A DNA stretch of 64,000 nucleotides. Origin: Spiribacter sp. 2438 (GTDB lineage Bacteria; Pseudomonadota; Gammaproteobacteria; Nitrococcales; Nitrococcaceae). Positions 9,756-22,704 of the stretch are shown here, piece by piece. The translations under genes were made by a program, and so were the position numbers. The notes below the pieces were generated by a model. It saw nothing but the letters and a program-made list of their open reading frames with translations. It had not been told where the DNA came from and did not search any database. Position 1 is the first letter of the stretch, and every line of letters begins with the position of its first letter. Location: assembly GCF_009676705.1 (NCBI RefSeq), contig NZ_CP046046.1, positions 248,001-312,000 on the forward strand. Direction: 5' to 3'.

Positions 9756-10526
9756 TTAGGGGCCCTGAAATTCAGCCACCACCGGTGCGTGGTCCGACGG
9801 CCGCTCCCGGGCGCGGGGGTCAGCGTCAATGGTGCTGGTCACCAGGTCGCGGGTCAGCGCCGGGCTGGTCAGGATCAGATCAATGCGCAGGCCCCGATTG
9901 CGCTTGAAATTGTTCATGCGGTAATCCCACCAGGAAAAGGCCGCCTCGGGCTGTTCGAAGCACCGGTAGCTGTCGCTGAAGCCCAGATCAAGGATGGACG
10001 CCAGGGCCTCCCGCTCCGGCGTGGAGCAGAGAATGGTCTCCTCCCATTCCGCCGGGTCGTGGACATCCGCATCCGCCGGCGCAATGTTGAAATCACCGAC
10101 CACGGCCACCCGTCGGTGGCGCTCCAGCTCATCCTCCAGCCATGCCTTCAGGTGGGCCAGCCAGGTCAGTTTGTACTCGTATTTGTCGGTGCCGACGGCC
10201 TTGCCGTTGGGCACGTACAGGTTGATGAAGCGCAGGTCACCCACAGTGGCCGCCAGTACCCGGCGCTGCGGGTCCTCAAACCCTGGGATGTCGAGCATCA
10301 CCTGCTCCGGTGGGGTGCGGGCCAGCACCGCGACCCCGTTGTAGGTCTTCTGACCCGCGAAGGCCACCTGGTAGCCCGCCGCCTGAATCGCTTCCACGGG
10401 AAACTTTTCGTCGGTCAACTTGGTTTCCTGCAGACCCAGCACATCGGGGCGGGCCTCGGCCAGCCAGTCCAGGACATGGGGTAGGCGCACGTTCAGGGAA
10501 TTGACGTTCCACGAGGCGATTTTCAC
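9756..10526 (-). CDS. xthA: Exodeoxyribonuclease III (AP endonuclease)
   Basis: ExoIII cleaves 5' to abasic sites and degrades duplex DNA 3'-5' in base excision repair. I chose GTG at 10526, giving 256 residues that begin [14 protein letters not shown], the conserved N-terminus; GGAG lies 9 bases before it. An upstream in-frame start at 10562 would add 12 unrelated residues. Catalytic marks are all present: the metal-binding Glu in [12 protein letters not shown], Tyr in [21 protein letters not shown] (Asp/Asn pair), [14 protein letters not shown] and the terminal SDHAPV His. It follows egtD after 75 bp on the same strand. Confidence 0.96.
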
Positions 10527-10601
10527 AGGCGGTGGCTCCAGTGGGTCAGCGGCAGAGCCCATGGATTGTAACCCCTGCGTGTGCGGGACGCAGCGGGCTC
10601 A

Positions 10602-11561
10602 TCATCCCCCTCCGTCGCCGCACAGCAGCAGCACCGCGAAATATCCGTCGGGATCGCTCCAGTGGCGATCCAGAGACCAGCCGGCGGCGGCGGCAAGTGT
10701 TTGGAAATACGCCAGGCTGTATTTATGCGAGGTTTCCGTGTGGAGGCTCTCGCCGGCGGCCAGCGTGAAAGCCTCTCCCGCCACTTCCACGGTGGTGGTT
10801 TTCCGGCAGACCAAATGCATTTCAATCCGTGGGGGGTTCGAAAAATACCGCGCTTCATGATCGAAAGCCTCCGGGTCGAACCCGGTGCCAAGTTCGCGGT
10901 TGATCCGGGTCAACAGGTTGCGATTGAAGGCGGCGGTTACGCCCTCCGGGTCATCATAAGCCGGCATCAGGATCTCCGGCGATTTTTCCAGATCGACGCC
11001 GACCAGAAAGGCGGCGTCATCGCCCAGCAGCCGTCGGCAGCGGCGCAGCAAAACAACCGCATCGCCTTCCCGCAGATTGCCGATGGTGGACCCCGGGAAA
11101 AACCCGACACGGCGAGTGTGGGGCGGTAGCCCCGGCGGCAGGTCGAAATCGCGGGTGAAGTCGGCGACCCGGGGATGCACGGGTACCTCCGGCACCCGGG
11201 CGCGCACTTCCTCAACGGCATCGGCAAGGTAATCGGCGGAGATGTCCAGCGGCACATAGCCCGCCGGTGCCGAAAGGGACTGCAGCAGGGGAACGGTTTT
11301 GCGACTCGAGCCGCTACCCAGTTCCACCAGCAGGCAACCCGCCGGCAAGGCTGCTGCGATGGCGCCCCGGTGGGCATCGAAAATGCCAAATTCGGTGCGG
11401 GTCGGGTAATAGCTCGGCAGTCGGGTAATGGCCTCGAAAAGCTCGGAACCGCGCTGATCGTATAGCCAGGTCGGCGGAATGCTGTGATACGGGTCACGAA
11501 GCGCGCTGATCAGGTCATGCTGAAGACGGGTATTCATGGGGTTGGCTCGCTCTGCCGTCAC
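10602..11561 (-). CDS. egtD: L-histidine N-alpha-methyltransferase (hercynine synthase) of selenoneine cluster
   Basis: EgtD trimethylates the alpha-amino group of histidine with three SAM to give hercynine (histidine betaine), the shared precursor of ergothioneine and selenoneine. The 319-residue protein has the DUF2260-type Rossmann methyltransferase fold: TWLYDQRGSELFEAIT and LPSYYPTRTE at the N-terminus, the SAM loop LVELGSGSSRKT, PLDISADYL, and FFPGSTIGNL, all hallmarks of EgtD. The C-terminal ETSHKYSL belongs to the histidine pocket. The first codon is GTG at 11561 overlapping the permease stop by 4 bases; ATG at 11537 is an alternative. It is the last gene of the operon senA-SBP-ATPase-permease-egtD. 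Since no egtB/egtC/egtE is present nearby, its hercynine most likely feeds SenA. Confidence 0.95.
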   Translation of the reverse strand: MTAERANPMNTRLQHDLISALRDPYHSIPPTWLYDQRGSELFEAITRLPSYYPTRTEFGIFDAHRGAIAAALPAGCLLVELGSGSSRKTVPLLQSLSAPAGYVPLDISADYLADAVEEVRARVPEVPVHPRVADFTRDFDLPPGLPPHTRRVGFFPGSTIGNLREGDAVVLLRRCRRLLGDDAAFLVGVDLEKSPEILMPAYDDPEGVTAAFNRNLLTRINRELGTGFDPEAFDHEARYFSNPPRIEMHLVCRKTTTVEVAGEAFTLAAGESLHTETSHKYSLAYFQTLAAAAGWSLDRHWSDPDGYFAVLLLCGDGGG

Positions 11562-13078
11562 GGGGTTTGCGGCGTGGACGCTTCCGGACTGGTACGAAGT
11601 TGCAGATGCCTGCGCATTCGTCGGGCCACGGCGTCAACGGCCATGTTCAATAACGCGGTAATCAGGATGAGCACCATGGCGCGATCAAATCGCATTTGCT
11701 GAATGGCGCTGTCGACATAAAAGCCCAGGGAGGCGATGCCAAGGATTCCCAGTATGGCTGTCTCCCGCATGATGATTTCCCAGCGATAGAGCAGGAACGC
11801 GAGAAACGGCCGGTAGAGGCGTGGCACCACCTCATGGGTGTAGCGATCGACCCCGCCGACGGCGTCTGGCCGCAGCGACAGTTCGTTGCTTTGGCGCCCC
11901 ACCAAATGACCGATGATTGCCCCATTGTGAATGGCAAGGGCCACCACCGCGGGCAGCACGGAGGGCCCCCAGAGCTGGAGCAGAATGTAAGCCAGCAGGT
12001 ATTCCGGGGTTGAGCGGCCGATGATCAGCAGGCTGTGGCCACCCAGACGGGCGATTCGGCCAGCGAAAAGCCGCGAAATCAGGGGGAAGGCCACCAGGGC
12101 CAGAGCACCGGTCACCACCAGGGCGATTTGCGTGAGGACCAGGGTGGCGGCGATGCCCGGCAGCGCCTGATGCATCAATAGATCGGTGAGCCATGGTCCA
12201 AGCCCGGCCAGCCCCTCGCCATGGCGCAGCGGGGCCGGGACGATGTCCTCGGTGAAGAACCGCTGGGCATTGCCCCAGACAATGGGCAAGCCGGTGCCAA
12301 GGAACCAGGGCGCAGCCAGCAGGTACAGGGGCACCAGCCGCGGCCGGACCCAGAGGCGGAGGCTGGCGATGAGTGCGAAAAACAGCAGCAGGAGCATGCC
12401 CACTTCACCGTAGACCCCCTCGCCGTAGGCGGTTTCCAGGTAAAAGCCCAGCGTGGGCATGCCCACAAACCCGAGGATCGCGCTGGAGCGCATGCCGCAC
12501 TCCAGCCGATAACTGGTGTAGGCCATGAGGTTGGCCCAGACATCGGGCACTCGGGCATACCAGAAGGTGGAGATCAGGCCGCTGCCGGCGGGCAGGGTCC
12601 GGGCCGGACGGTCATCTCCCTCTTCGAGGATCTCGCTGTAGACCCGGGCAAAAATGGCGGCGTAGGGGAGCGCGATGGCGAGCACGCCGGTGAGGGGGTG
12701 AAGGCCAAAAAACTGAAGAAAAATCAGCGCCCAGAAGAGCTCATGAATGCCCCGCAGGAAGGCGCAGGCACCCCGAACCAGCCGACTGTGAAAAATCAGC
12801 GCCAGGCCCATGCCCACCACCGCCGCCAGACCCACGCCGGTGAAGGCGAAGGCAACCGTGCGCAACAGAGCGACCGCGGCTGTGTCCAGGGTGGTGAAGT
12901 CCGGCTGGATCAGGCCCCGCGCAAAGCGGCCCAGTTCCGCCCAGGGAGAAATGGAGCGAATTTCGAAATCCGCCAGCGCCACGCAGATCAGCGCCACCAC
13001 CACCAGCCAGACGCTGGTGCGGACCGTGGAGGACGTCCATGCCGCGCCGTCCCCCGGCCGAGGGTCAGTAAAGGGCAT
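11558..13078 (-). CDS. PhnE-like ABC transporter permease, tandem-fused, predicted selenium oxyanion importer
   Basis: This is a 506-residue inner-membrane permease built of two PhnE-type halves in tandem. The first half contains a TM1 of about VWLVVVALICVALADF and an EAA-type coupling loop near ARVPDVWANLMAYTSYRLECGMRSSAILGFVG split over two lines of helix; the second half repeats the same plan with VVPRLYRPFLAFLLYR and MRETAILGILGIASLGFYVD. PhnE proteins are usually single units of about 260 residues that dimerise, so this is a natural fusion. I place the start at ATG 13078, which overlaps the ATPase gene end by 14 bp; an in-frame upstream ATG at 13159 is inside the ATPase gene. The next gene egtD overlaps by 4 bp. 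The substrate is inferred from neighbours only. Confidence 0.85.
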   Translation of the reverse strand: MPFTDPRPGDGAAWTSSTVRTSVWLVVVALICVALADFEIRSISPWAELGRFARGLIQPDFTTLDTAAVALLRTVAFAFTGVGLAAVVGMGLALIFHSRLVRGACAFLRGIHELFWALIFLQFFGLHPLTGVLAIALPYAAIFARVYSEILEEGDDRPARTLPAGSGLISTFWYARVPDVWANLMAYTSYRLECGMRSSAILGFVGMPTLGFYLETAYGEGVYGEVGMLLLLFFALIASLRLWVRPRLVPLYLLAAPWFLGTGLPIVWGNAQRFFTEDIVPAPLRHGEGLAGLGPWLTDLLMHQALPGIAATLVLTQIALVVTGALALVAFPLISRLFAGRIARLGGHSLLIIGRSTPEYLLAYILLQLWGPSVLPAVVALAIHNGAIIGHLVGRQSNELSLRPDAVGGVDRYTHEVVPRLYRPFLAFLLYRWEIIMRETAILGILGIASLGFYVDSAIQQMRFDRAMVLILITALLNMAVDAVARRMRRHLQLRTSPEASTPQTP

Positions 13079-13715
13079 CCAGCGCCCCGCTGTCGACATG
13101 GTCCGCTGGCGTATCCAGGGCAATCCGCCCGTCACTGATGCCCACCAGCCGCCCGGCATATCGCCGGGCCAGGCTCAGGTCATGCATGGCGATTACCGCG
13201 GTTTCGTATTGATCCGTGAGGGCATCCATGACCTGCTCGGCGCGGGGGCCATCCAGCGCCGACACCGGCTCGTCGGCGAGGAGGATCTGTCCACCCTGGA
13301 AAAGCGCCCGGGCCACCGCCACCCGTTGTCGTTGGCCACCGGACAGCTCACCGGCCCGGGCCCAGAGGGTTTCGGTCATGTCGATCCGCTCGAGCACTGC
13401 CATCACCCCGACTATTTCCCGCCGGAACGGCCGCACCAGGTTGGCCAGGTTGTAGGCGGCGGAGTGCTCCCGCAGCTGGCCCATGTAGACGTTGTGAAAC
13501 ACGCTGAGGGTGTTCACCAGGCCCAGATCCTGGGGCATCAGGGCCATCTCCGGGCGCTGGCGATCATGCAAAAGCGCCAGCAGGGTGGACTTGCCCGCTC
13601 CACTGCGGCCCACCAGGGCGACGCGCTCGCCAACGGCAACCCGCAGGTTCAGCGGCCCCAGGACGGTCCGCCCGCCGTAGCGGGCCAGGGCGTCCCGAAG
13701 AGTCAGTGCGTCCAT
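13065..13715 (-). CDS. PhnC-like ABC transporter ATP-binding protein, predicted selenium oxyanion importer
   Basis: This 216-residue ATPase powers the importer formed with the genes on either side. Walker A is GRSGAGKS (residues 36-43), the Q-loop Gln is about residue 62 (LMPQDLGLVNTLSVFHN), the signature LSGGQRQRVAVARAL starts at 124, Walker B ILLADEP is 144-150, and the H-loop is in IAMHDL. The NTLSVFHNVYMG stretch is typical of PhnC (which has 'NvltgRlg'). The distance from Walker A to Q-loop is only about 20 residues instead of about 40, so this is a shortened ABC domain. The start shares a base with the stop of the binding protein gene (TGATG), showing coupling. Confidence 0.88.
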   Translation of the reverse strand: MDALTLRDALARYGGRTVLGPLNLRVAVGERVALVGRSGAGKSTLLALLHDRQRPEMALMPQDLGLVNTLSVFHNVYMGQLREHSAAYNLANLVRPFRREIVGVMAVLERIDMTETLWARAGELSGGQRQRVAVARALFQGGQILLADEPVSALDGPRAEQVMDALTDQYETAVIAMHDLSLARRYAGRLVGISDGRIALDTPADHVDSGALDALY

Positions 13716-14569
13716 CAGTCAATCAGGCCGATGGCGCGGGCGGTCTCTCCCAGTTCTTCGTAATCCTCGTTGGTGACCGGCACGAACTCTCGCCGGGGAA
13801 AGCGCTCCAGCAGATCCGGGTCATCCATGCCGAGCAGGGCCTCTCGAACCTGCTCGGTAAAGCCCTCGCCAAAGCGCTGATCCACGTCACCGCGGATGCT
13901 CCACTGATAATTCAGGTAGCCCGGGGTCTCCCAGATCACCTGTACCGCCTCCGTGTCGATGTTGCCGGCGGCCAATTCACGCTCCCAGACGGCGTAATTG
14001 AGAACGCCCACCTCGTAGCTACCGCTCTCCACCAGCCGCAGGGTCCGGCTGTGGTTCCCGCTGTAGCCCACCCGGGCGAAAATATCGTCGGGGGATTCAC
14101 CAAAGCGTTCCCGGAGATGAAATTCCGGCATCAGTCGGCCCGATGTGGACACTCTGGAACTGAAAGTGAAAGTCCGATCCCGCAGTGCCTCATCCAGCTG
14201 TTCGCTGGGCTCAAGGCCGGTGCTGGAATTGGCGATGAAATAGGAGCGAAACCCCTCGTCTTCGGCTCCCCGGGCGAGGGCTTCGGAGCCGGGCACCCGT
14301 GCCCGCGCCTGCAGACCGGTCAGACCGCCGAACCAGGCCAGTTGAACTTGGTTGTTACGAAACGCGCTGACCGCGGCGGCGTAGGATTTCACGGGCACAT
14401 AGCGCACTTCCACCTCGAGGGCATCCGCCAGATAGTCTCCCACGGCGTCAAACCGCTCCTGAAGGCGGCTTTCATCCTGGTCCGGGATGGCGGTGAAGAC
14501 GAATACGTCAGCTTTGGCTGGCAGAGCGATAACCAGTGCCAGCAGGGCCAACATGATGAAACGTCGCAT
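13715..14569 (-). CDS. PhnD-like periplasmic binding protein of predicted selenate/selenite ABC transporter
   Basis: This 284-residue protein begins with a Sec signal peptide (MRRFIMLALLALVIALPAKA, cleavage near residue 20) and is a PhnD-family periplasmic binding protein. The mature start DVFVFTAIPDQDESRLQE, the VQLAWFGGLTGLQARARVPG region and SYFIANSSTGLEP match the group annotated as putative selenate ABC transporter substrate-binding protein (TIGR04553-like), which is known to occur beside selD-type genes. PhnD relatives bind phosphonate or phosphite; selenite has a similar trigonal oxyanion shape, so import of a selenium oxyanion is a reasonable inference from family and neighbours. It lies 27 bp downstream of senA and one base from the ATPase gene. 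Confidence 0.86.
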   Translation of the reverse strand: MRRFIMLALLALVIALPAKADVFVFTAIPDQDESRLQERFDAVGDYLADALEVEVRYVPVKSYAAAVSAFRNNQVQLAWFGGLTGLQARARVPGSEALARGAEDEGFRSYFIANSSTGLEPSEQLDEALRDRTFTFSSRVSTSGRLMPEFHLRERFGESPDDIFARVGYSGNHSRTLRLVESGSYEVGVLNYAVWERELAAGNIDTEAVQVIWETPGYLNYQWSIRGDVDQRFGEGFTEQVREALLGMDDPDLLERFPRREFVPVTNEDYEELGETARAIGLID

Positions 14570-14596
14570 TGGAGACTCCTTGTCGTCGGGTTGAGA

Positions 14597-15922
14597 TCAG
14601 TTCTGGCGGGCGCAGGTCCGGAAGCCGGCGATGATGTCGTTGCGTCCGGGCGGGAAGAAATTGCGGGTATTAATGTTCAGATGCCGACGCCGGGTGGCCC
14701 AGCTGCCGCCGCGCAGCACCCGGCGATTGTCCTCGAACCATGGGGCCGAGTAGTCCGCGTAAAGATCGGCGCTGAAACCCGGGTAGGGTCCGAAGGGTGA
14801 GGCGGTCCACTCCCAGACGTTGCCCAGCATCTGCCGGCAGCCCAGGGCGCTGTCGCCATCGGCAAGACCTGCCACATCGACACAGCCGAGACGGTAACCA
14901 TCGGTGTTGGCATGATGCAGTTGCCCGGCGTCCTGTCCCCAGGGGTAGAGGCGCTTGCCATCGGCCAGGCCATTCACGGCGGGGGCACGGCTGGCCGCAA
15001 CTTCCCATTCCACTTCGCTGGGCAGCCGCCGCCCGGCCCAGTCACAGTAGGCCTGCGCTTCGTGCCAGCTGACATGGGCCACCGGCGCATTCGGCTGCAT
15101 GGGTAGCCAGCGGTCGAAATGGCGCACCTCCCAGCCCTGGGGCCCGGTCCGCCAATACACCGGTGCCTCGAGCTCGTTTTCCTGAAGCCAGGCCCAGCCG
15201 GCCGCCGACCAGAAGCTCGCTGTTTGGTAGCCGCCCGCCTCGACGAAGGCCGCAAATTCCGCCTGGGTTACCGGTGCGCGGGCAATTCGAAAGGGCGCCA
15301 CGTCAACCGTGTGACAGGTCTTTTCGTTATCAAATCGAAACGGGACCGTCTCATCGGCCCCCAGCGCATGGGTTCCGCCGGGTACCGTCACGTCGCCGGG
15401 GAGGGGGCCATCGCCGGGATCCGGGAGCGGCTGCGGCAACGTCAGCACCGGGGCGGCGTCCGCCAGGGTCTGGCGAGTGTAGGCAAACGCCTCGCCATGC
15501 ATGTCTTCATGAAAAACCGCCAACTGCCAGACATAGCTGGTGGCCGCATCGGCGGTGCCTGATGGCAGCCGCGCCGCCATTTGATCGCGAACCTGCCGCA
15601 GGTAGGTCAGGGTGTCATCCATGGTGGGCAGGGAAAGCTCCCAGCGGTCATCGTGCTCGACGCCCATGGAGTCATAGAGGCGTTCGGCGTCGGCGATCTG
15701 ATAATCCGTCTCGCCGTGCAGCTGATGGAGGAAGAAGTGATCATAGAAAAACCCGACATGGCCGATCTCCCATTGCGGAGGATTGACGATGCTAAGCTTC
15801 GGGCCGAGCCGACGTTCCGCTGGCAGGTCACCGGTGAGCTGCCGGGTCCGCTGGCGGGCGTCATCGAGCATGGCGAGCAGGGTTTCGGAGGCGACAGGAT
15901 GAGTCGGTGGTGTCTGAATCAT
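14597..15922 (-). CDS. senA: Selenoneine synthase (EgtB-like non-haem iron C-Se bond-forming enzyme)
   Basis: SenA couples a selenosugar to the imidazole of hercynine and removes the sugar to give selenoneine. The 441-residue protein has the EgtB architecture: an N-terminal DinB-like domain with a three-His iron site (H55 in WEIGHVGFFYDHF; H138 and H142 in VFHEDMHGEAFAYT) and a C-terminal FGE-sulfatase-type domain (GGTHALGADE, LPSEVEWEVAA, GNVWEWTASPFGPYPGF, RVLRGGSWATRRRH, AGFRTC). EgtB itself has the same His spacing, so the SenA call comes from the context: senB is 26 bp away in divergent orientation and a SelD fusion is next. AGGAG with a 6-base gap precedes ATG 15922. It heads the operon with the transporter and egtD. 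Confidence 0.88.
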   Translation of the reverse strand: MIQTPPTHPVASETLLAMLDDARQRTRQLTGDLPAERRLGPKLSIVNPPQWEIGHVGFFYDHFFLHQLHGETDYQIADAERLYDSMGVEHDDRWELSLPTMDDTLTYLRQVRDQMAARLPSGTADAATSYVWQLAVFHEDMHGEAFAYTRQTLADAAPVLTLPQPLPDPGDGPLPGDVTVPGGTHALGADETVPFRFDNEKTCHTVDVAPFRIARAPVTQAEFAAFVEAGGYQTASFWSAAGWAWLQENELEAPVYWRTGPQGWEVRHFDRWLPMQPNAPVAHVSWHEAQAYCDWAGRRLPSEVEWEVAASRAPAVNGLADGKRLYPWGQDAGQLHHANTDGYRLGCVDVAGLADGDSALGCRQMLGNVWEWTASPFGPYPGFSADLYADYSAPWFEDNRRVLRGGSWATRRRHLNINTRNFFPPGRNDIIAGFRTCARQN

Positions 15923-15948
15923 CGCGGGCTCCTGGTCGACGGTGGTGC

Positions 15949-16914
15949 ATGAAAATCGGATTGATCACACCGGCGGCGCCCCGCTCCCGGGCGGGGAATC
16001 GGGCCACGGCCACTCGCTGGGCCCGCCTGCTGCGGGAGGCAGGTCATCGGGTCAGTGTCCGGGAGGCCTGGCGGCCGGGAGACCCCGGCTTTGATGTCAT
16101 GCTGGCCCTGCATGCCTGGCGAAGCGCAGAGAGCATTGCGGCCTATGCCGCCCGCTGGCCCGGGCGGCCACTGATTGTGGTGCTCACCGGCACCGATACT
16201 TACCGGTTTCAGCACAGCGACCCCGGCGTGACCCTGGCGAGTCTTGAAAAAGCCCATGGACTGATCGGTCTTCACGACCATGTTCATCGCGACATCCCGG
16301 CCCGATTTCACGACCGTCTGGCGATTGTCCGCCAGTCGGCGACTCCGCTGCCGGCGAGTTACCGCCGGCCCTCGGCGGGCGCCTTCGATGTCTGTGTCGT
16401 TGGCCATCTGCGGGAAGAAAAGGACAGCCTGCGGGCGGCCAGGGCCGCGCGGGATCTGCCGCCGGAGTCCCGCCTTCGCATCCGGCAGGCCGGCCGGGCG
16501 CACAGCCCCGACTGGGCAGCAGCGGCGGAAGCGGAAATGCGCATCAACCCGCGTTTTGTCTGGCATGGCGAGATTGGTCAGGGTGGCGTCCGGCGTCTCT
16601 ACGCCCGCAGCCGGGCGATGGTGATCAGCTCGGTGATGGAAGGCGGTGCCAATGTGGTCTCTGAAGCCTGCGTGGCGGGATTGCCGGTGCTGGCCAGCCG
16701 GATTCCCGGCAACACCGGGCTCCTGGGAGACGACTATCCGGGGTTCTATCCGCCCCGGGACACCCTGGCGCTCCGTGTTCTGATGCAGCGGGCGGAACGG
16801 GAGCCCGATTATCTGCAGCAACTGACGGCTCACTGTCGGGCAATGGCGGCGCGGTTCACGCCCCGGGCGGAGAGGTTGGCCCTCAGGCGGGCGATTGATC
16901 AGGCCATGCGATAA
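15949..16914 (+). CDS. senB: Selenosugar synthase (TIGR04348-type glycosyltransferase)
   Basis: SenB is a GT4-like glycosyltransferase that replaces UDP of a UDP-sugar with selenophosphate-derived selenium to form a 1-seleno-sugar. The 321-residue product starts MKIGLITPAAPRSRAGNRAT; this start at 15949 aligns with the family and removes a 14-residue junk extension. Seen features are GNRATATRWARLLREAGHRV (N-terminal Rossmann), VLTGTDTYRF, VVGHLREEKDSLRAARAARDL, and the C-terminal SSVMEGGANVVSEACVAGLPVLAS with the E-x7-E-like donor-binding region. It is divergent from senA and convergent with senC (2 bp between stops). The sequence has long been called a putative glycosyltransferase in selD neighbourhoods; the SenB role was established for homologues in Variovorax. 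Confidence 0.88.
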   Translation: MKIGLITPAAPRSRAGNRATATRWARLLREAGHRVSVREAWRPGDPGFDVMLALHAWRSAESIAAYAARWPGRPLIVVLTGTDTYRFQHSDPGVTLASLEKAHGLIGLHDHVHRDIPARFHDRLAIVRQSATPLPASYRRPSAGAFDVCVVGHLREEKDSLRAARAARDLPPESRLRIRQAGRAHSPDWAAAAEAEMRINPRFVWHGEIGQGGVRRLYARSRAMVISSVMEGGANVVSEACVAGLPVLASRIPGNTGLLGDDYPGFYPPRDTLALRVLMQRAEREPDYLQQLTAHCRAMAARFTPRAERLALRRAIDQAMR

Positions 16915-16916
16915 CG

Positions 16917-19196
16917 TCATGGATTGAGTTGAATGGGCTCCAGGCCCTCTCCCTGAGCGCTCACCTGACCAATCACCGCGGTGTGGGGATAGCCCAGGGA
17001 CCTGAGCTCACGCACACAGGCGTCGGCCCGGTCCGCCGGAATGCTGGCCAGTAGCCCACCAGCGGTCTGGGGGTCGAACACCAGAGGGTAGCGGGGGTGA
17101 TCCTTCACCGCACCCGGGTTACGGATGGCCCGCCGCAGTCGAACGTTGGCCGGTTGCAGAGAGCTGAGAATGCCCGCGGCCACCGTCTCTTCGGCACCGT
17201 CCAGCACCGGCAGCGAGGACAACTCCAGCGTTGCGTCGACTCCGGAAGGTCGTGTCATCTCCACCAGATGCCCCAGCAGGCCGAAGCCGGTGAGATCCGT
17301 GCAGGCAGTGGCCCCCTGCTGATGCAGGCACCCGGCGGCCTGGCGATTGGACTGGCGCATGGACTGCAGCGCGCCGTCGATCCATCGCCCGCGCGTGGCC
17401 AGTCGAGCATGAGCGGCAAACAGGGTGCCCGTGCCGATGGGCTTGGTCAGCACCAGCGCATCGCCGGGCTGCATGCCGCTCTTGCGCATGATGTCTTCCG
17501 CCCGATCATCAATCAGGCCATTGACGGCAAACCCCAGCGCCAACTCCTGCCCCTCGCCGGTGTGTCCGCCCACCAGAGCGCAGTCGGCATCGTTAAGGAT
17601 CTCCAGAGCGCCGGCCATCATCTGGTAGACGGTGTCCTCCACCTTGGCTTCCAACCCCTGGGGCACGGTTGCCACGGCGGTGGCGGTCTGCGCTTCCGCG
17701 CCCATGGCAAAAATATCGCCAAGCGCGTGGTTGGCGGCGATCTGGCCGAAGATATAGGGGTCGTCCACAAAGGCGCGGAAAAAATCCACGGTGTGGACCA
17801 GCGCTTTGCCCGGGGGAATTCGCACCACGGCGGCGTCATCCGGGGCATGCAAGCCGATCAGCACGTCATCCCGTTCAACCGGCTGAAGCGCACCCAGCGC
17901 CCGCGACAGCGTGGAGGCGCCCACTTTCGCGCCACAGCCGCCACACCGCATGGCGACTGCCGATAGGGCCTGTCGTGCTTCCTCGCCTTCCAGCGCGACC
18001 CGGGATCGCGGCCCGGAGGATTCGCTCTCCTCCATCGGGGGCAGGTCGCTGAAACGCGCCATGAACCGCCGATCGATCCAGTCTTTCCAGTGCCAGAGCG
18101 CCCGGCCCTCGGCACCCAGGGCACCCCGGGATGCCACCGCGTAGCGATCGCCGGTGCTGATCAGCGCCAGCCAGCGCCGCTGCGGCCGATAGGGCCGGGG
18201 CTCCCGATCCTCCACGGAGAACCTCAGGTTGCGAGCCAGGGGCGGTCCCTGTCGGACGGCGAAAACGCCGGCTTTCTCCCGGGGGTGGTTGATCATGGTG
18301 GCGATGTCCCCGGCGGCAAACACTGCCGGGTCGGTGACGGTCTGCAGGGTGTCCGTCACCTGAATGAAACCGTTGTCGTCCAGGGCCAGCCCGGTGTCCC
18401 GAAGCCAGGGGGCTCCGCCCGCCCGGGTGACCCAGACCACCTCATCCGCCGGGTACTGCTGACCGTCGCGGGTCTGCAGACCGCTCGCCTCGACGGCGGT
18501 GACCTCGGCGTTGCAGTGCACGGCCACACCGCGCTCTGCGAGGACACGGGCAAACCGCTGGCGGACATTGGCCGCATGGGTGGGCAGCACGCTCTGGCCC
18601 CGGGTGAACAGGGCGAACTGCAGCCGATCCGGATTCTGTCCCCGGGCCTGCATTTCACTTCGCAGCCGGTACTGCATGGCCAGCAGCAGTTCGACGCCGC
18701 CGGCGCCACCGCCCACCACGGCAATGCGAAGCCCGTTGGTGGCCGAGCGCACGCGCTCGAGCAGCGCCAGCCAGCGATGGTTGAACCGGTGGATGGGCTT
18801 GACGGCGACGGCATGATCCGATGCCCCGCTGGCGCCGGCCAGTTGCGGCGTCGAGCCGATGTTGATGGACAGTCGGTCGTAGGGCACCGGCGGCCGATCG
18901 CTGCAGAGCACCTGACCGGCCTGGCGGTCCAGCCCGACGGCCTCACTGGAGAGGAAGCGGGCGCCGGCAAACTCCGCCAGACGGCGCAGATCGATGTGCA
19001 CGTCGTCATAGCCGTAGTGGCCCGCCACATAGCCGGGCAGCATGCCCGAGTACGGGGTGTGGGTATCCCGGCAGATCAGGGTCAGACGCACCCCCGGGGC
19101 GGGCTTCATGCCAAAACGTCTGAGAACGCCCACGTGGCTGTGGCCGCCTCCCACCAGAACGATGTCCCGGAGGACCGGCTGTGAAGAATGCTGCAT
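16917..19196 (-). CDS. selD: NADH-dehydrogenase-like flavoprotein fused to selenide, water dikinase (SenC/SelD)
   Basis: This 759-residue fusion makes selenophosphate from selenide and ATP, the selenium donor for SenB. Residues 1 to about 385 are an NDH-2-like FAD/NAD oxidoreductase: VLVGGGHSHVGVLRRF (14-29), the second Rossmann VVGGGAGGVELLLAM (160-174) and VFAAGDIATM (292-301). Residues about 415-759 are SelD: CGGCGAKVG with catalytic Cys421 and Lys424 (E. coli C17 and K20 positions; the second Cys, C19, is Ala), then VHTVDFFRAFVDDPYIFG, HALGDIFAMGA and DLTGFGLLGHL. The active residue is Cys, not Sec. It follows prlC by 15 bp and ends 2 bp from senB. The flavoprotein domain might supply reduced selenium, which is an inference. 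Confidence 0.95.
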   Translation of the reverse strand: MQHSSQPVLRDIVLVGGGHSHVGVLRRFGMKPAPGVRLTLICRDTHTPYSGMLPGYVAGHYGYDDVHIDLRRLAEFAGARFLSSEAVGLDRQAGQVLCSDRPPVPYDRLSINIGSTPQLAGASGASDHAVAVKPIHRFNHRWLALLERVRSATNGLRIAVVGGGAGGVELLLAMQYRLRSEMQARGQNPDRLQFALFTRGQSVLPTHAANVRQRFARVLAERGVAVHCNAEVTAVEASGLQTRDGQQYPADEVVWVTRAGGAPWLRDTGLALDDNGFIQVTDTLQTVTDPAVFAAGDIATMINHPREKAGVFAVRQGPPLARNLRFSVEDREPRPYRPQRRWLALISTGDRYAVASRGALGAEGRALWHWKDWIDRRFMARFSDLPPMEESESSGPRSRVALEGEEARQALSAVAMRCGGCGAKVGASTLSRALGALQPVERDDVLIGLHAPDDAAVVRIPPGKALVHTVDFFRAFVDDPYIFGQIAANHALGDIFAMGAEAQTATAVATVPQGLEAKVEDTVYQMMAGALEILNDADCALVGGHTGEGQELALGFAVNGLIDDRAEDIMRKSGMQPGDALVLTKPIGTGTLFAAHARLATRGRWIDGALQSMRQSNRQAAGCLHQQGATACTDLTGFGLLGHLVEMTRPSGVDATLELSSLPVLDGAEETVAAGILSSLQPANVRLRRAIRNPGAVKDHPRYPLVFDPQTAGGLLASIPADRADACVRELRSLGYPHTAVIGQVSAQGEGLEPIQLNP

Positions 19197-19211: not shown

Positions 19212-21251
19212 TCAGGCAGTCAGGCCACTGGCTTTGAGTAGCGGCTCGATGCTGGGTTCCCGACCCCGGAAGTCGCGGAACAGTTTGGCCGCGTCCTCCG
19301 ATCCTCCCTTCTCCAGAATGTGCTCCAGGAAGGCGCGACCCGTGACCGGATTGAAAATGCCTTCCTCGGTGAATCGCGCAAACGCGTCAGCGGACAGGAC
19401 TTCCGCCCACTTGTAGCTGTAGTAGCCCGCGGCATAGCCGCCCGCAAAGATGTGCGCAAAGCTGTTGGGGAAGCGATTGAACGCCGGGGGCCGAACCACC
19501 GCCACCTGGTCGCGCACCTCATCAAGCAGCGGGAATATCCGCTCGCCGGCGGTGCGGTCGTGTTCGACATGCAGGCGCAGATCGAACAGCGAAAATTCCA
19601 GCTGACGGACCATCTGCATGGCTGCCTGAAAGTGACGGGCGGCGGTCATGCGCTCGAAGAGGGACGCGGGGATCGGTTCGTCGGTCTGGTAATGGCGGGC
19701 AAAGAGATCCAGCGCTTCCCGTTCCCAGCACCAGTTCTCCAGGAACTGGCTGGGCAGCTCCACCGCGTCCCAGGCCACGCCGCTGATGCCGGCGACGCTG
19801 GCGGCGTCCACCCGGGTGAGCATGTGGTGGAGCCCGTGACCGAACTCGTGGAACAGCGTCTCCACCTCGCCGTGGGTAATGAGCGCCGGCTGTCCTCCCA
19901 CCGGGGGCGTGAAGTTGCAGGTCAGAAATGCCACCGGCGTCTGCACCTCACCCTCATGGTTCATGCGCCCCCGCGCCGTGGCCATCCAGGCCCCACCCCG
20001 CTTGTGGGAGCGGGCGTAAAGGTCGGTATAGAACTGGCCCCGCAGTTCGCCATTGGCGTCGTGGATCTCATAAAAGCGCACCTCATCGTGCCAGGTGTCG
20101 ACGTCGTCCCGGGGGGTGATGTGAATGCTGAAGAGCCGCTCTACCACGTCGAACAGCCCCGCCATGACCCGATCGGCCTGAAACCAGGGGCGCAGATCCT
20201 CCGGCGAGAGGCGATGCCGGGTCTCCCGCAACCGCTCACTGTAGTAGCCCACATCCCAGGCCGGCAGCGATTCAATGCCGTCGCGCTCGCTGGCAAAGGC
20301 TGTCAGCTCGGCGTATTCCCGCTCGGCTGCAGGTTTTGCCCGCGTGGCGAGGTCCTCGAGAAAATCCACTACCTGCCGGGCCGAGTCCGCCATCTTCGGG
20401 GCCAGCGACAACTCGGCGTAGTTGGGATAGCCCAGCAGCTCCGCCTGCTCCTGGCGCAGATCCAGGATCTCGCTCATGATCGGATGGTTATCCCAGCGAC
20501 CGCCATGGGGGCCCGCGTCCGAGGCCCGGGTGGTGAAGGCTTCGTAAACTTCCCGTCGCAGGGCGGGGTTGTGGGCATGCGCCAGCACCGCCTGGACCAC
20601 GGGCATGTCCAGACTGATGCGCCAGCCGTCGGCCCCGGCCGTCTCGGCGTTCTGCCGCATGACACCCAGCGCGGACTCGGGGATGCCGGCCACCTCGTCC
20701 GGGTCGCTGGTGTCCCGATGCCAGGCATCGGTGGCATCCAGCAGATTTTCCTGGAATTTGGACGCCAGCTCGGCCAGACGGGCGGCAATGGCGGCGTATC
20801 GCTGCTTGGCCGATGCCTCCAGCGCAACCCCGGCCAGCTCGAAATCGCGCAGCGCATTGTCGACGCTCTGACGCTGGGCCTGATCCAGCCGCGGGTATTC
20901 ATCGCCGTCGCGAAGCTGCCGAAACGCCGCATAAAGATCGGTGTTCTGACCCATCTCGGTGGAATAGGCGGAGAGCAGTGGCAGACAGGCGTTGTAAGCC
21001 TCCCGCAGGGCTTCGCTGTTCATGACCGCATTCAGGTGGGACACCGGCGACCAGACTTTCTCCAGCCGGTCCTCCAGGCGCTCCAGTGGCGCCACCAGAC
21101 CCTGCCAGGTGGCAGGCACCGGGTCGGTGGTGAGCTCGGCAATGGCCGCCCGATTGTCCGCCAGTACCTGTTCGATGGCGGGTTTGACGTGTTCCGGGCG
21201 AATGTCGGAGAAGCGGGGCAGGTCGGATTCAGCCAGCAGCGGATTGGTCAT
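19212..21251 (-). CDS. prlC: Oligopeptidase A (M3 family zinc metallopeptidase)
   Basis: PrlC degrades cytosolic peptides, including cleaved signal peptides. The zinc site HEFGHGLHHML (HExxH form, with downstream Glu in the SGVAWDAVELPSQFLENW stretch) is clear. I start it at ATG 21251, giving 679 residues beginning MTNPLLAESDLPRFSDI, in agreement with the 680-residue E. coli enzyme; an AGGAAAG lies about 10 bases upstream. Earlier in-frame starts up to 21347 would add 32 unrelated residues and overlap the divergent gor start. The gene is followed by senC with only 15 bp in between, so readthrough into the selenium gene is likely. Confidence 0.96.
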   Translation of the reverse strand: MTNPLLAESDLPRFSDIRPEHVKPAIEQVLADNRAAIAELTTDPVPATWQGLVAPLERLEDRLEKVWSPVSHLNAVMNSEALREAYNACLPLLSAYSTEMGQNTDLYAAFRQLRDGDEYPRLDQAQRQSVDNALRDFELAGVALEASAKQRYAAIAARLAELASKFQENLLDATDAWHRDTSDPDEVAGIPESALGVMRQNAETAGADGWRISLDMPVVQAVLAHAHNPALRREVYEAFTTRASDAGPHGGRWDNHPIMSEILDLRQEQAELLGYPNYAELSLAPKMADSARQVVDFLEDLATRAKPAAEREYAELTAFASERDGIESLPAWDVGYYSERLRETRHRLSPEDLRPWFQADRVMAGLFDVVERLFSIHITPRDDVDTWHDEVRFYEIHDANGELRGQFYTDLYARSHKRGGAWMATARGRMNHEGEVQTPVAFLTCNFTPPVGGQPALITHGEVETLFHEFGHGLHHMLTRVDAASVAGISGVAWDAVELPSQFLENWCWEREALDLFARHYQTDEPIPASLFERMTAARHFQAAMQMVRQLEFSLFDLRLHVEHDRTAGERIFPLLDEVRDQVAVVRPPAFNRFPNSFAHIFAGGYAAGYYSYKWAEVLSADAFARFTEEGIFNPVTGRAFLEHILEKGGSEDAAKLFRDFRGREPSIEPLLKASGLTA

Positions 21252-21339
21252 GGTGTGAATCGTCTTTCCTTCAATGTCATCACCGTCAGGGTCTGTCAGA
21301 ATGAGGGATCCCAACACAGCGAGCAACCGGGGTTTGACC

Positions 21340-22704
21340 ATGACCAAAGGGCAGGGCGCCTACGATCTGATCTGCATTGGCGGCGGTAGTGGCGGCATTG
21401 CCACGGCCCGGCGGGCGGCGGCCCACGGGGCGCGCTGCGCGGTGATCGAGTCGGACCGGCTAGGGGGCACCTGCGTCAACGTGGGCTGCGTGCCCAAAAA
21501 GGTGATGTGGCAGGCGGCCCATGCCGCCGAGGTCATGGAGCGGGCCGGTGACTACGGCTTCTCCGGCGTTTCGCCTCGGCTGGACTGGGGGGCGCTGGTG
21601 AGTGCCCGGGATGCCTACATCCGGCGACTGAACGGCATCTACGAGCGCAATCTCGACAAGTCGGAGGTGGACTTCATCAGCGGGTATGCCCGCTTTGTTG
21701 ACGCCCACACCGTAGCGGTGGACGGGCAGCACTATCAGGCGGAACGATTCGTAATCGCCACCGGTGGAGTGCCGGGTCGGCCGGGGATTCCGGGGGGTGA
21801 CCTGGGGATCGATTCCGACGGCTTCTTCGCCATGCCAGACCGACCGGAAAAAGTGGCTGTGGTGGGCGCGGGCTACATCGCGGTGGAGCTCGCCGGCGTG
21901 CTGCATCAGCTGGGCAGTGACGTCTCGCTGGTGGTGCGACGGGAGCGGCCCCTGCGCAGCTTTGACGAGGCCATTCAGGAGGCTTATGTCCACAGCACCA
22001 CCCAGCATGGTCCCACCCTGGTCAATCACTTCACCCCCAGTGGGCTGGAGGCCGCCTGGGGGGGATACACCCTGCATGCCGAGGACGGCCGAACCCTGGA
22101 GGGGCTGGACCAGGTGATCTGGGCGGTGGGACGGCTGGCCAACACCGACGAACTGGGCCTGGAGGCCGCCGGTGTCCGCACCGGCGACGGCGGCATTATT
22201 CCCGTGGACCCGTGGCAGGCCACCAACCAGCCGCACATTTTCGCCCTGGGGGATGTCACCGACAATCCCTATCCCCTGACGCCGGTGGCCATTGCCGCCG
22301 GCCGCCGGCTGGCGGATCGCGTCTGGGGTGGCCACGCAGAACGGCGCCTGGACTACCGCGACGTGCCGACGGTGGTGTTCACCCATCCCCCCATCGGCAT
22401 GGTGGGAATGACCGAGGCCGAGGCTCGAGAGCAGCACGGTGACCAGGTACGGATCTATCAGGCGGGATTTGTGCCCATGGACTTCGCCCTGGCGCCCGCC
22501 GAAGCCAAGCAGCGCAGCACCATGAAGCTGGTCTGTGTCGGTGCCGAGGAGCGGGTGGTGGGTATCCACCTGTTTGGTGTCGGCAGCGATGAGATGCTGC
22601 AGGGGTTCGCGGTGGCGTTGCGCATGGGGGCCACTAAAGCCGATCTGGATGACACCGTCGCCATCCATCCCACGGCCGCCGAAGAACTGGTCACCATGAC
22701 CTGA
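21340..22704 (+). CDS. gor: Glutathione-disulfide reductase
   Basis: Gor reduces GSSG to GSH with NADPH. The 454-residue protein starts at ATG 21340 ([16 protein letters not shown]), with the FAD fold [14 protein letters not shown], the redox disulfide [14 protein letters not shown], the NADPH-binding [18 protein letters not shown] with Arg in [19 protein letters not shown] and the C-terminal active-site His region [13 protein letters not shown]. These separate it from lipoamide dehydrogenase (GGTCxxxGCxPSK). An upstream ATG at 21274 is possible but adds 22 residues that do not fit the family. It is divergent from prlC. GSH is the usual cellular reductant of selenite, which links it loosely to the neighbouring selenium genes. 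Confidence 0.95.

Follow-up and report, generated by a model that had tools for sequence, protein, structure and literature searches.

A putative self-contained selenoneine module with its own candidate selenium importer in Spiribacter sp. 2438

The 64,000-nucleotide stretch of Spiribacter sp. 2438 analysed here (NZ_CP046046.1, positions 248,001 to 312,000; hereafter the window) carries an 8.6-kb block at 10602-19196, whose seven reading frames are open, full-length and located where a first-pass annotation of the DNA had placed them. The block holds egtD, a PhnE-PhnE permease, PhnC, a TIGR04553 binding protein, senA, senB and a SelD fusion (senC), and is considered here as a candidate locus for synthesis of the antioxidant selenoneine. 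That these functions stand side by side had been proposed in that annotation and is borne out by matches to NCBIfam (release 20, scores being compared with curated cut-offs and given below as score/cut-off): five of the seven genes pass their cut-off, and the matches of the permease to PhnE and of the ATPase to PhnC fall short of theirs. The accompanying supposition that automatic pipelines would label the region as ergothioneine and phosphonate genes did not hold, because SenA, SenB, SelD, EgtD and a "putative selenate" binding protein, the name NCBI already gives to the TIGR04553 family, are all called over cut-off, and phosphonate-like labelling applies only to the permease and the ATPase. 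The features are as follows, in window coordinates.

9756..10562, minus strand: xth, exodeoxyribonuclease III (TIGR00195); left boundary, outside the block
10602..11561, minus strand: egtD, L-histidine N-alpha-methyltransferase (predicted hercynine source), GTG start (TIGR03438 358.5/290.9; PF10017)
11558..13159, minus strand: permease, tandem PhnE-like domain fusion, with an exact start made uncertain by overlap with the ATPase gene (TIGR01097 in two stretches, 200.4 against a cut-off of 216.7)
13065..13715, minus strand: PhnC-like importer ATPase (TIGR02315 160.1 against a cut-off of 266.1; PF00005)
13715..14569, minus strand: periplasmic binding protein TIGR04553, putative selenium oxyanion binder (399.4/250; closest solved structure 7s6g)
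14597..15922, minus strand: senA, predicted non-heme iron selenoneine synthase, with H55/H138/H142, Y391, N421 and F422 (NF041186 500.1/420; trees; residues)
15923..15948, no strand: senA-senB intergenic gap, 26 bp between divergent start codons (from the sequence)
15949..16914, plus strand: senB, predicted selenosugar synthase (Se-glycosyltransferase), ATG at 15949 (TIGR04348 395.0/300, in a search begun at 15952, one codon short)
16917..18011, minus strand: SelD half of senC, predicted selenophosphate synthetase (TIGR00476 295.3/125; alignment with SelD chain 3u0o)
18042..19196, minus strand: N-terminal FAD/NAD(P) oxidoreductase half of senC (TIGR03169 513.5/310)
19212..21347, minus strand: prlC, oligopeptidase A (NF008159 942.4/927); right boundary, outside the block

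Within the genus, the block behaves as a unit. Among 14 genomes, that of strain 2438 included, SenA over cut-off, SelD, EgtD and TIGR04553 occur together in four (G000, G001, G002, G005), and none of them was found in the remaining ten, five of which reach 90% completeness or more. No match to SelA, SelU or the ovothiol-type methyltransferase appeared in any of the 14; as a positive control, the methyltransferase search finds one beside OvsA in genome G018. In strain 2438 itself, the SenA model matches no further protein at E <= 0.001, and hence no EgtB or OvoA is recognized there. From the all-or-none pattern and the lack of SelA and SelU, the block is the sole selenium trait and the sole hercynine source found in the genus, and it is strongly supported that it is self-contained and inherited all-or-none. 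The expectation of a hercynine source within the locus is supported, the distribution of egtD tracking that of the block in four of 14 genomes. In a wider set of 59 genomes, own included, SenA and TIGR04553 pass their cut-offs in exactly the same ten; EgtD is present in all ten and beside the block in five.

The importer was also part of the first-pass annotation, and permease, ATPase and TIGR04553 binding protein are indeed all present in the block. Its connection with selenium can be judged by genomic linkage. In a class-wide sample of 303 genomes drawn evenly, TIGR04553 is over cut-off in 13, separated from the rest by a gap in score (347-399 against 240 or less). SelD is found in all 13, compared with 68/303 overall (p 1.4e-9), and SenB in 8/13, compared with 19/303 (p 5e-8), both probabilities ignoring kinship, whereas genomes having a weaker PhnD-like best match (100-250 bits) show no SelD link (6/26, p 0.55). 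In eight of the 13, the TIGR04553 gene is found within about 20 kb of senB or a SelD domain on one contig, and seven loci (L021-L027) have permease fusions that are 65-86% identical. In G159, whose SenA is the row closest to Variovorax SenA in the careful tree described below, a TIGR04553 protein and egtD lie no more than 8 kb from senA. In G018, a SenA module and OvsA with the ovothiol-type methyltransferase share 15 kb (L021 5090-7254 and 13908-19276), and in G269 a 31-kb stretch around one senB and one importer carries SenA, a second enzyme related to it, egtD and an ovothiol-type methyltransferase (L141, L167-L169), an arrangement in both genomes that would be expected if the importer feeds selenium to either pathway. 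The second enzyme of G269 is 35% identical to the window SenA, lies beside SelD and is OvsA-like by context. Altogether, this linkage provides good indirect evidence that the importer carries selenium.

Two further points concern G269. A sen cluster without SenA was considered there and rejected, because both SenA and the OvsA-like enzyme turn up further along the contig, about 10-13 kb from senC. Its sen locus (L141 9570-11596) has genes for a PatB-family C-S lyase and a methyltransferase after the importer genes, and these could act on a selenium compound.

Alternatively, the importer could move phosphite, phosphate or phosphonate, its position in the block being incidental. Among solved structures, the binding protein comes closest to two of picocyanobacterial PhnD1, 7s6g (240 bits) and 5lq5 (192 bits), proteins that bind phosphite and phosphate (PMC10284923), and the pocket matches theirs, Tyr44, the STS motif, His156 and the capping Tyr204 being retained in 38/38 rows (the window and 37 loci). 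The window protein differs in having Val for Ser123 and Asn for the acceptor Asp203, but the latter change is not general, with Asn in 10/38 rows (the window, three congeners and six others) and Asp in 28/38; Asp-to-Asn at the PhnD1 proton-acceptor position was accordingly rejected as a general mark of selenium. The constant company of SelD with TIGR04553, compared with 6/26 for the weaker PhnD-like proteins, speaks against a phosphorus substrate, as does the failure to find TIGR04553 in any of the ten block-less genus genomes. No phosphonate or phosphite catabolic gene is found among the seven genes of the block, the rest of the genome not having been searched for such genes. In picocyanobacteria the PhnD1-C1-E1 genes adjoin tesA and have been assigned to phosphate/phosphite, unlike the window importer (PMC10284923). 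A phosphorus importer is considered unlikely.

For the senA product, the three-histidine iron site named in the first-pass annotation (H55, H138, H142) is invariant in the SenA alignments. The NF041186 model (cut-off 420) gives 500 for the window enzyme and 516 for the partial Variovorax SenA, but the family name was rejected as proof of SenA, because OvsA (428.2) and a beta-proteobacterial enzyme from a locus without senB (L076, 489) pass as well; scores are lower for the OvsA of G018 (408) and for an EgtB adjacent to egtD (350). Trees were therefore built. In a quick tree of 129 rows, the window enzyme falls in a 74-row set (SH-aLRT 95), 73 members of which, itself included, adjoin senB, and an 88-row branch (SH-aLRT 78) contains all 84 senB-adjacent rows, the window among them, together with Variovorax SenA, leaving outside 18 EgtB rows, the EgtB of M. 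thermoresistibile, four OvoA and the OvsA rows. In a careful tree of 70 rows, it belongs to a 31-row group (84/95), 30 of them with senB, nested in a 59-row SenA/OvsA superclade (88/98) with EgtB outside it. H90, W94 and M141 occur in each of the 84 senB-adjacent rows as well as in Variovorax SenA and OvsA, and in none of the 18 EgtB rows, the M. thermoresistibile EgtB or the four OvoA rows; R93 was discarded as a mark of SenA and OvsA because EgtB rows carry it too. Family position and residues thus set the enzyme apart and support its assignment to SenA, not EgtB, as the first-pass annotation had anticipated.

It could also be supposed that the enzyme is OvsA, selenating histidine with ovoselenol as the product. 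OvsA is the best match of the window enzyme in the PDB, and phmmer ranks it (300 bits) above Variovorax SenA (225 bits); moreover, the careful tree gives no resolved order among the window group, Variovorax SenA and the OvsA-containing group, and a shared branch with OvsA is compatible with it. At three other places, however, the window has Y391, N421 and F422, as does Variovorax SenA, to whose partial sequence it is about 41-43% identical. The PDB chains 8u41 and 8ux5, both OvsA, carry M/Q/A and Y/N/F, respectively, at these places, within the aligned part, and 8ux5 is read as an OvsA variant engineered to be SenA-like, since the natural OvsA-like enzyme of G018 carries M/Q/A. SenA is favored over OvsA by the Y/N/F residues, by the co-inheritance of egtD and the block within the genus and by the failure to find an ovothiol-type methyltransferase in any of the 14 genomes, in a search that does detect the one beside the OvsA of G018. 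G018 also has SenA-type and OvsA-type enzymes as different proteins 10 kb apart, and an OvsA in the window is considered very improbable. A sulfur enzyme making ergothioneine is equally hard to credit, because, although fold family and iron triad are common with EgtB, the EgtB model TIGR03440 gives 334.1 bits, under its cut-off of 360, the enzyme lies outside the EgtB clades with H90, W94 and M141 in place, and SelD is inherited with the SenA-like gene in the genus.

The same searches brought up a clade of SenA-like enzymes that have SenA/OvsA residues but lack senB within the sequence available (L053, L058, L062, L073, L076, L077, L080, L085, L091, L097, L098, L099 and L101), of which L076 is the single member scored with NF041186; the eight neighbor genes scanned revealed no shared theme. 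SenA-like genes were also observed in records labelled Planctomycetota (64% identical to that of the window), Poribacteria, Acidobacteria and Bacillota (L036, L053, L062, L081, L111), and, given these labels, some of the cases probably reflect transfer or binning error.

In the SelD half of senC, aligned with 3u0o, the equivalents of Cys17 and Lys20, which are important in SelD, are retained, and Cys19 is replaced by Ala. The TIGR04369 model for fusions that are not SelD gives 459.2, under its cut-off of 700. The closest solved relatives of the oxidoreductase half are type II NADH dehydrogenases and sulfide:quinone reductases, and the SenC-type fusion extends beyond sen clusters, since G016, G023 and G049 have the fusion and SelA without SenA over cut-off. 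In SenB, alignment shows that the equivalents of the catalytic Lys (K158) and the donor-site Asn and Thr (N20, T23) of the Variovorax enzyme (PMC10891094) are retained.

The arrangement of these genes is also shared with other genomes. senB lies on the plus strand, embedded between senC and senA, both on the minus strand together with the genes from senA to egtD, and the ends of senB and senC are 2 bp apart; a transcript from senC to senA would pass antisense through senB. Among the 80 named loci fetched with the SenA alignment (the best 80 of 565 confirmed), senB lies within the available sequence of 61 and on the opposite strand to senA in 53, the aligned gene ends of these divergent pairs being 19-80 bp apart in 40/53, and the order senC> <senB senA> is found in 33 of the 41 loci with both senB and a SelD domain. 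The recurrence of the block's gene order in other genomes makes it more than chance. Approximate dN/dS against one congener is 0.07-0.19 for six of the seven block genes (permease excluded; dS near saturation) and 0.08-0.09 for the flanking genes. Scans for sigma-70 promoters (0 found, 1.8 expected) and terminator-like sites (8 found, 6.6 expected) were uninformative.

The history of the site can be followed because prlC and xth flank it in relatives with and without the block, prlC being present in all 14 genus genomes. A genome of another genus in the same family (G017) has a complete block at the same prlC-xth site. Among the ten block-less genus genomes, six (L114, L115, L117, L119, L122, L124) have at this site a stand-alone protein related to the oxidoreductase half of SenC, 57-69% identical to it and ending about where that half ends; prlC and xth are adjacent in three, and one is indeterminate because its contig ends. 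In an oxidoreductase tree of 59 rows, the stand-alone proteins, the genus SenC and three fused SenC proteins (from Litoricola, a gammaproteobacterium and an Alcaligenaceae metagenome-assembled genome) make up a 13-row group (100/99), with G017 just outside it (89/92) and the remaining 45 rows also fused. The block of G017 at the same site and the oxidoreductase half retained alone in six block-less genomes point to loss, and the simplest reading is an ancestral block, repeatedly lost, at times sparing the oxidoreductase half, and transferred to other lineages. Recent horizontal gain in the genus is not supported, given a GC content of 65.7% in the block and 65.2% in the window, the G017 block at the same site and the nesting of the left-over oxidoreductases among fused SenC. 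Retention of this half after loss of the block suggests that it has work outside selenium too. Two genes from senC, a glutathione reductase gene lies at window positions 21274-22704; it is not a member of the block, since it also adjoins prlC in block-less relatives, but could act as a helper in selenite reduction.

Taken together, we consider it likely that the block is a complete selenoneine module, from selenium uptake through to selenoneine. The reactions of SenA, SenB and SenC were established in Variovorax (PMC9814287; PMC10891094, PMC10903977), and the enzymatic steps proposed here, that of EgtD included, are carried over from what is known in other organisms. The binding protein would capture a small selenium oxyanion, perhaps hydrogen selenite, which the PhnC/PhnE-like ABC importer would carry into the cell, where general thiol chemistry, possibly aided by the oxidoreductase half of SenC, may convert it to selenide. 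The SelD half of SenC would then make selenophosphate and SenB the selenosugar, while EgtD would supply hercynine; SenA would join selenosugar and hercynine using iron and oxygen, and the resulting selenoxide would collapse to selenoneine, the predicted product in Spiribacter sp. 2438.

Besides the points granted above to phosphorus import and to OvsA, several observations weigh against a complete selenoneine module. NCBIfam models give no match to a selenate or selenite reductase among the seven genes, and of the pathway from selenium oxyanion to selenoneine drawn in the first-pass annotation, the genes for import, SelD, SenB, SenA and EgtD stand and the reductive step lacks a gene of its own in the block. 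The SenB motif EGGAHV reads EGGANV in the window. SelD is found in eight of the ten SenA-positive genomes of the 59-genome set, with none over threshold in G029 and G051, both in many contigs; in G051 the senC end falls at a contig edge. Five of the 13 TIGR04553 genomes in the class-wide sample have no senB, and in five the TIGR04553 gene is not seen near senB or selD. Many sen loci show no importer within the available sequence: it is found in 16 of the 80 loci fetched with the SenA alignment (the best 80 of 565 confirmed), and in 11 of the 29 having senB and sufficient flank.

The core selenoneine pathway is already known. The sen cluster (senA, senB, senC) was reportedly described in Variovorax paradoxus DSM 30034 by Kayrouz et al. 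(Nature, 2022), and the window shares with it SenA, SenB and SelD functions, the catalytic Lys and donor-site Asn/Thr of SenB and the RNFF motif of SenA; features of the window are the SelD-oxidoreductase fusion, egtD and an ABC importer within the block and the antisense-embedded senB, the Variovorax surroundings not having been compared. The OvsA ovoselenol pathway (PDB 8u41/8u42) is said to come from Kayrouz et al. (Nat Chem, 2024); the window SenA has HxxMH and HxxRW stretches in common with OvsA, in addition to their shared superclade, and differs in its Y/N/F residues, its egtD and the lack of an ovothiol-type methyltransferase match. The loci of Halomonas, Litchfieldella, Aquisalimonas and Litoricola (L034-L049) have senC, senB, senA, importer and egtD together in 8/16 and importer or egtD outside the available sequence in the other eight; in Halomonadaceae, egtD is on the other side. 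For transport, prokaryotes are stated in a 2026 review to have no identified high-affinity system specific for selenium (PMC13188914), and the accessible literature naming selenoneine and ABC transporter, subscription papers lying outside the search, yielded none evidently devoted to selenium import by a sen cluster. A gene for such a putative selenate binding protein is listed in Modicisalibacter and read there as export (PMC13077682), and in a survey from 2016 covering 26 organisms with orphan SelD, including Prochlorococcus, an ABC ATPase is one of three genes picked near selD (PMC5029168).

The relationship with PhnD1 may extend the proposal to marine picocyanobacteria. Hydrogen selenite resembles phosphite in shape and in charge at neutral pH, both being pyramidal and singly protonated, and for this reason selenite is favored here over the selenate of the family name. 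As far as the available text of the PhnD1 study goes, PhnD1 favors phosphite over phosphate in vitro (0.05-4.3 uM for phosphite and 7-182 uM for phosphate, Table 1), two Synechococcus strains tested fail to grow on phosphite, most picocyanobacterial strains lack phosphite-use genes, the phnD1 genes do not respond to phosphate stress, and phnD1 is retained in all 97 genomes, the authors concluding that it serves a phosphate transporter (PMC10284923). No word in "selen-" occurs in the PhnD1 papers PMC10284923, PMC8786288 and PMC5700983. A 2005 survey describes in Prochlorococcus and Synechococcus a SelD homolog extended at its N terminus by an NADH-dehydrogenase-like part and lists cyanobacteria with the YbbB-bearing organisms (PMC1273633); PMC3597751, in its available text, proved a false lead as a source on picocyanobacterial selenium. 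It is tentatively proposed, as a possibility we would not yet favor, that the TIGR04553 PhnDCE-like system is dedicated to importing selenium, with hydrogen selenite as its most likely substrate, and that picocyanobacterial PhnD1-C1-E1 is the same system, feeding the NADH-dehydrogenase-fused SelD. If the binding protein does take selenite, the question of what PhnD1 does in marine picocyanobacteria, already disputed, would be reopened. In Spiribacter, a transporter inherited all-or-none with the sole selenium trait found in a 1.9-Mb genome offers a clean test case for a bacterial selenium importer, for which the block-less sister species serve as natural controls.

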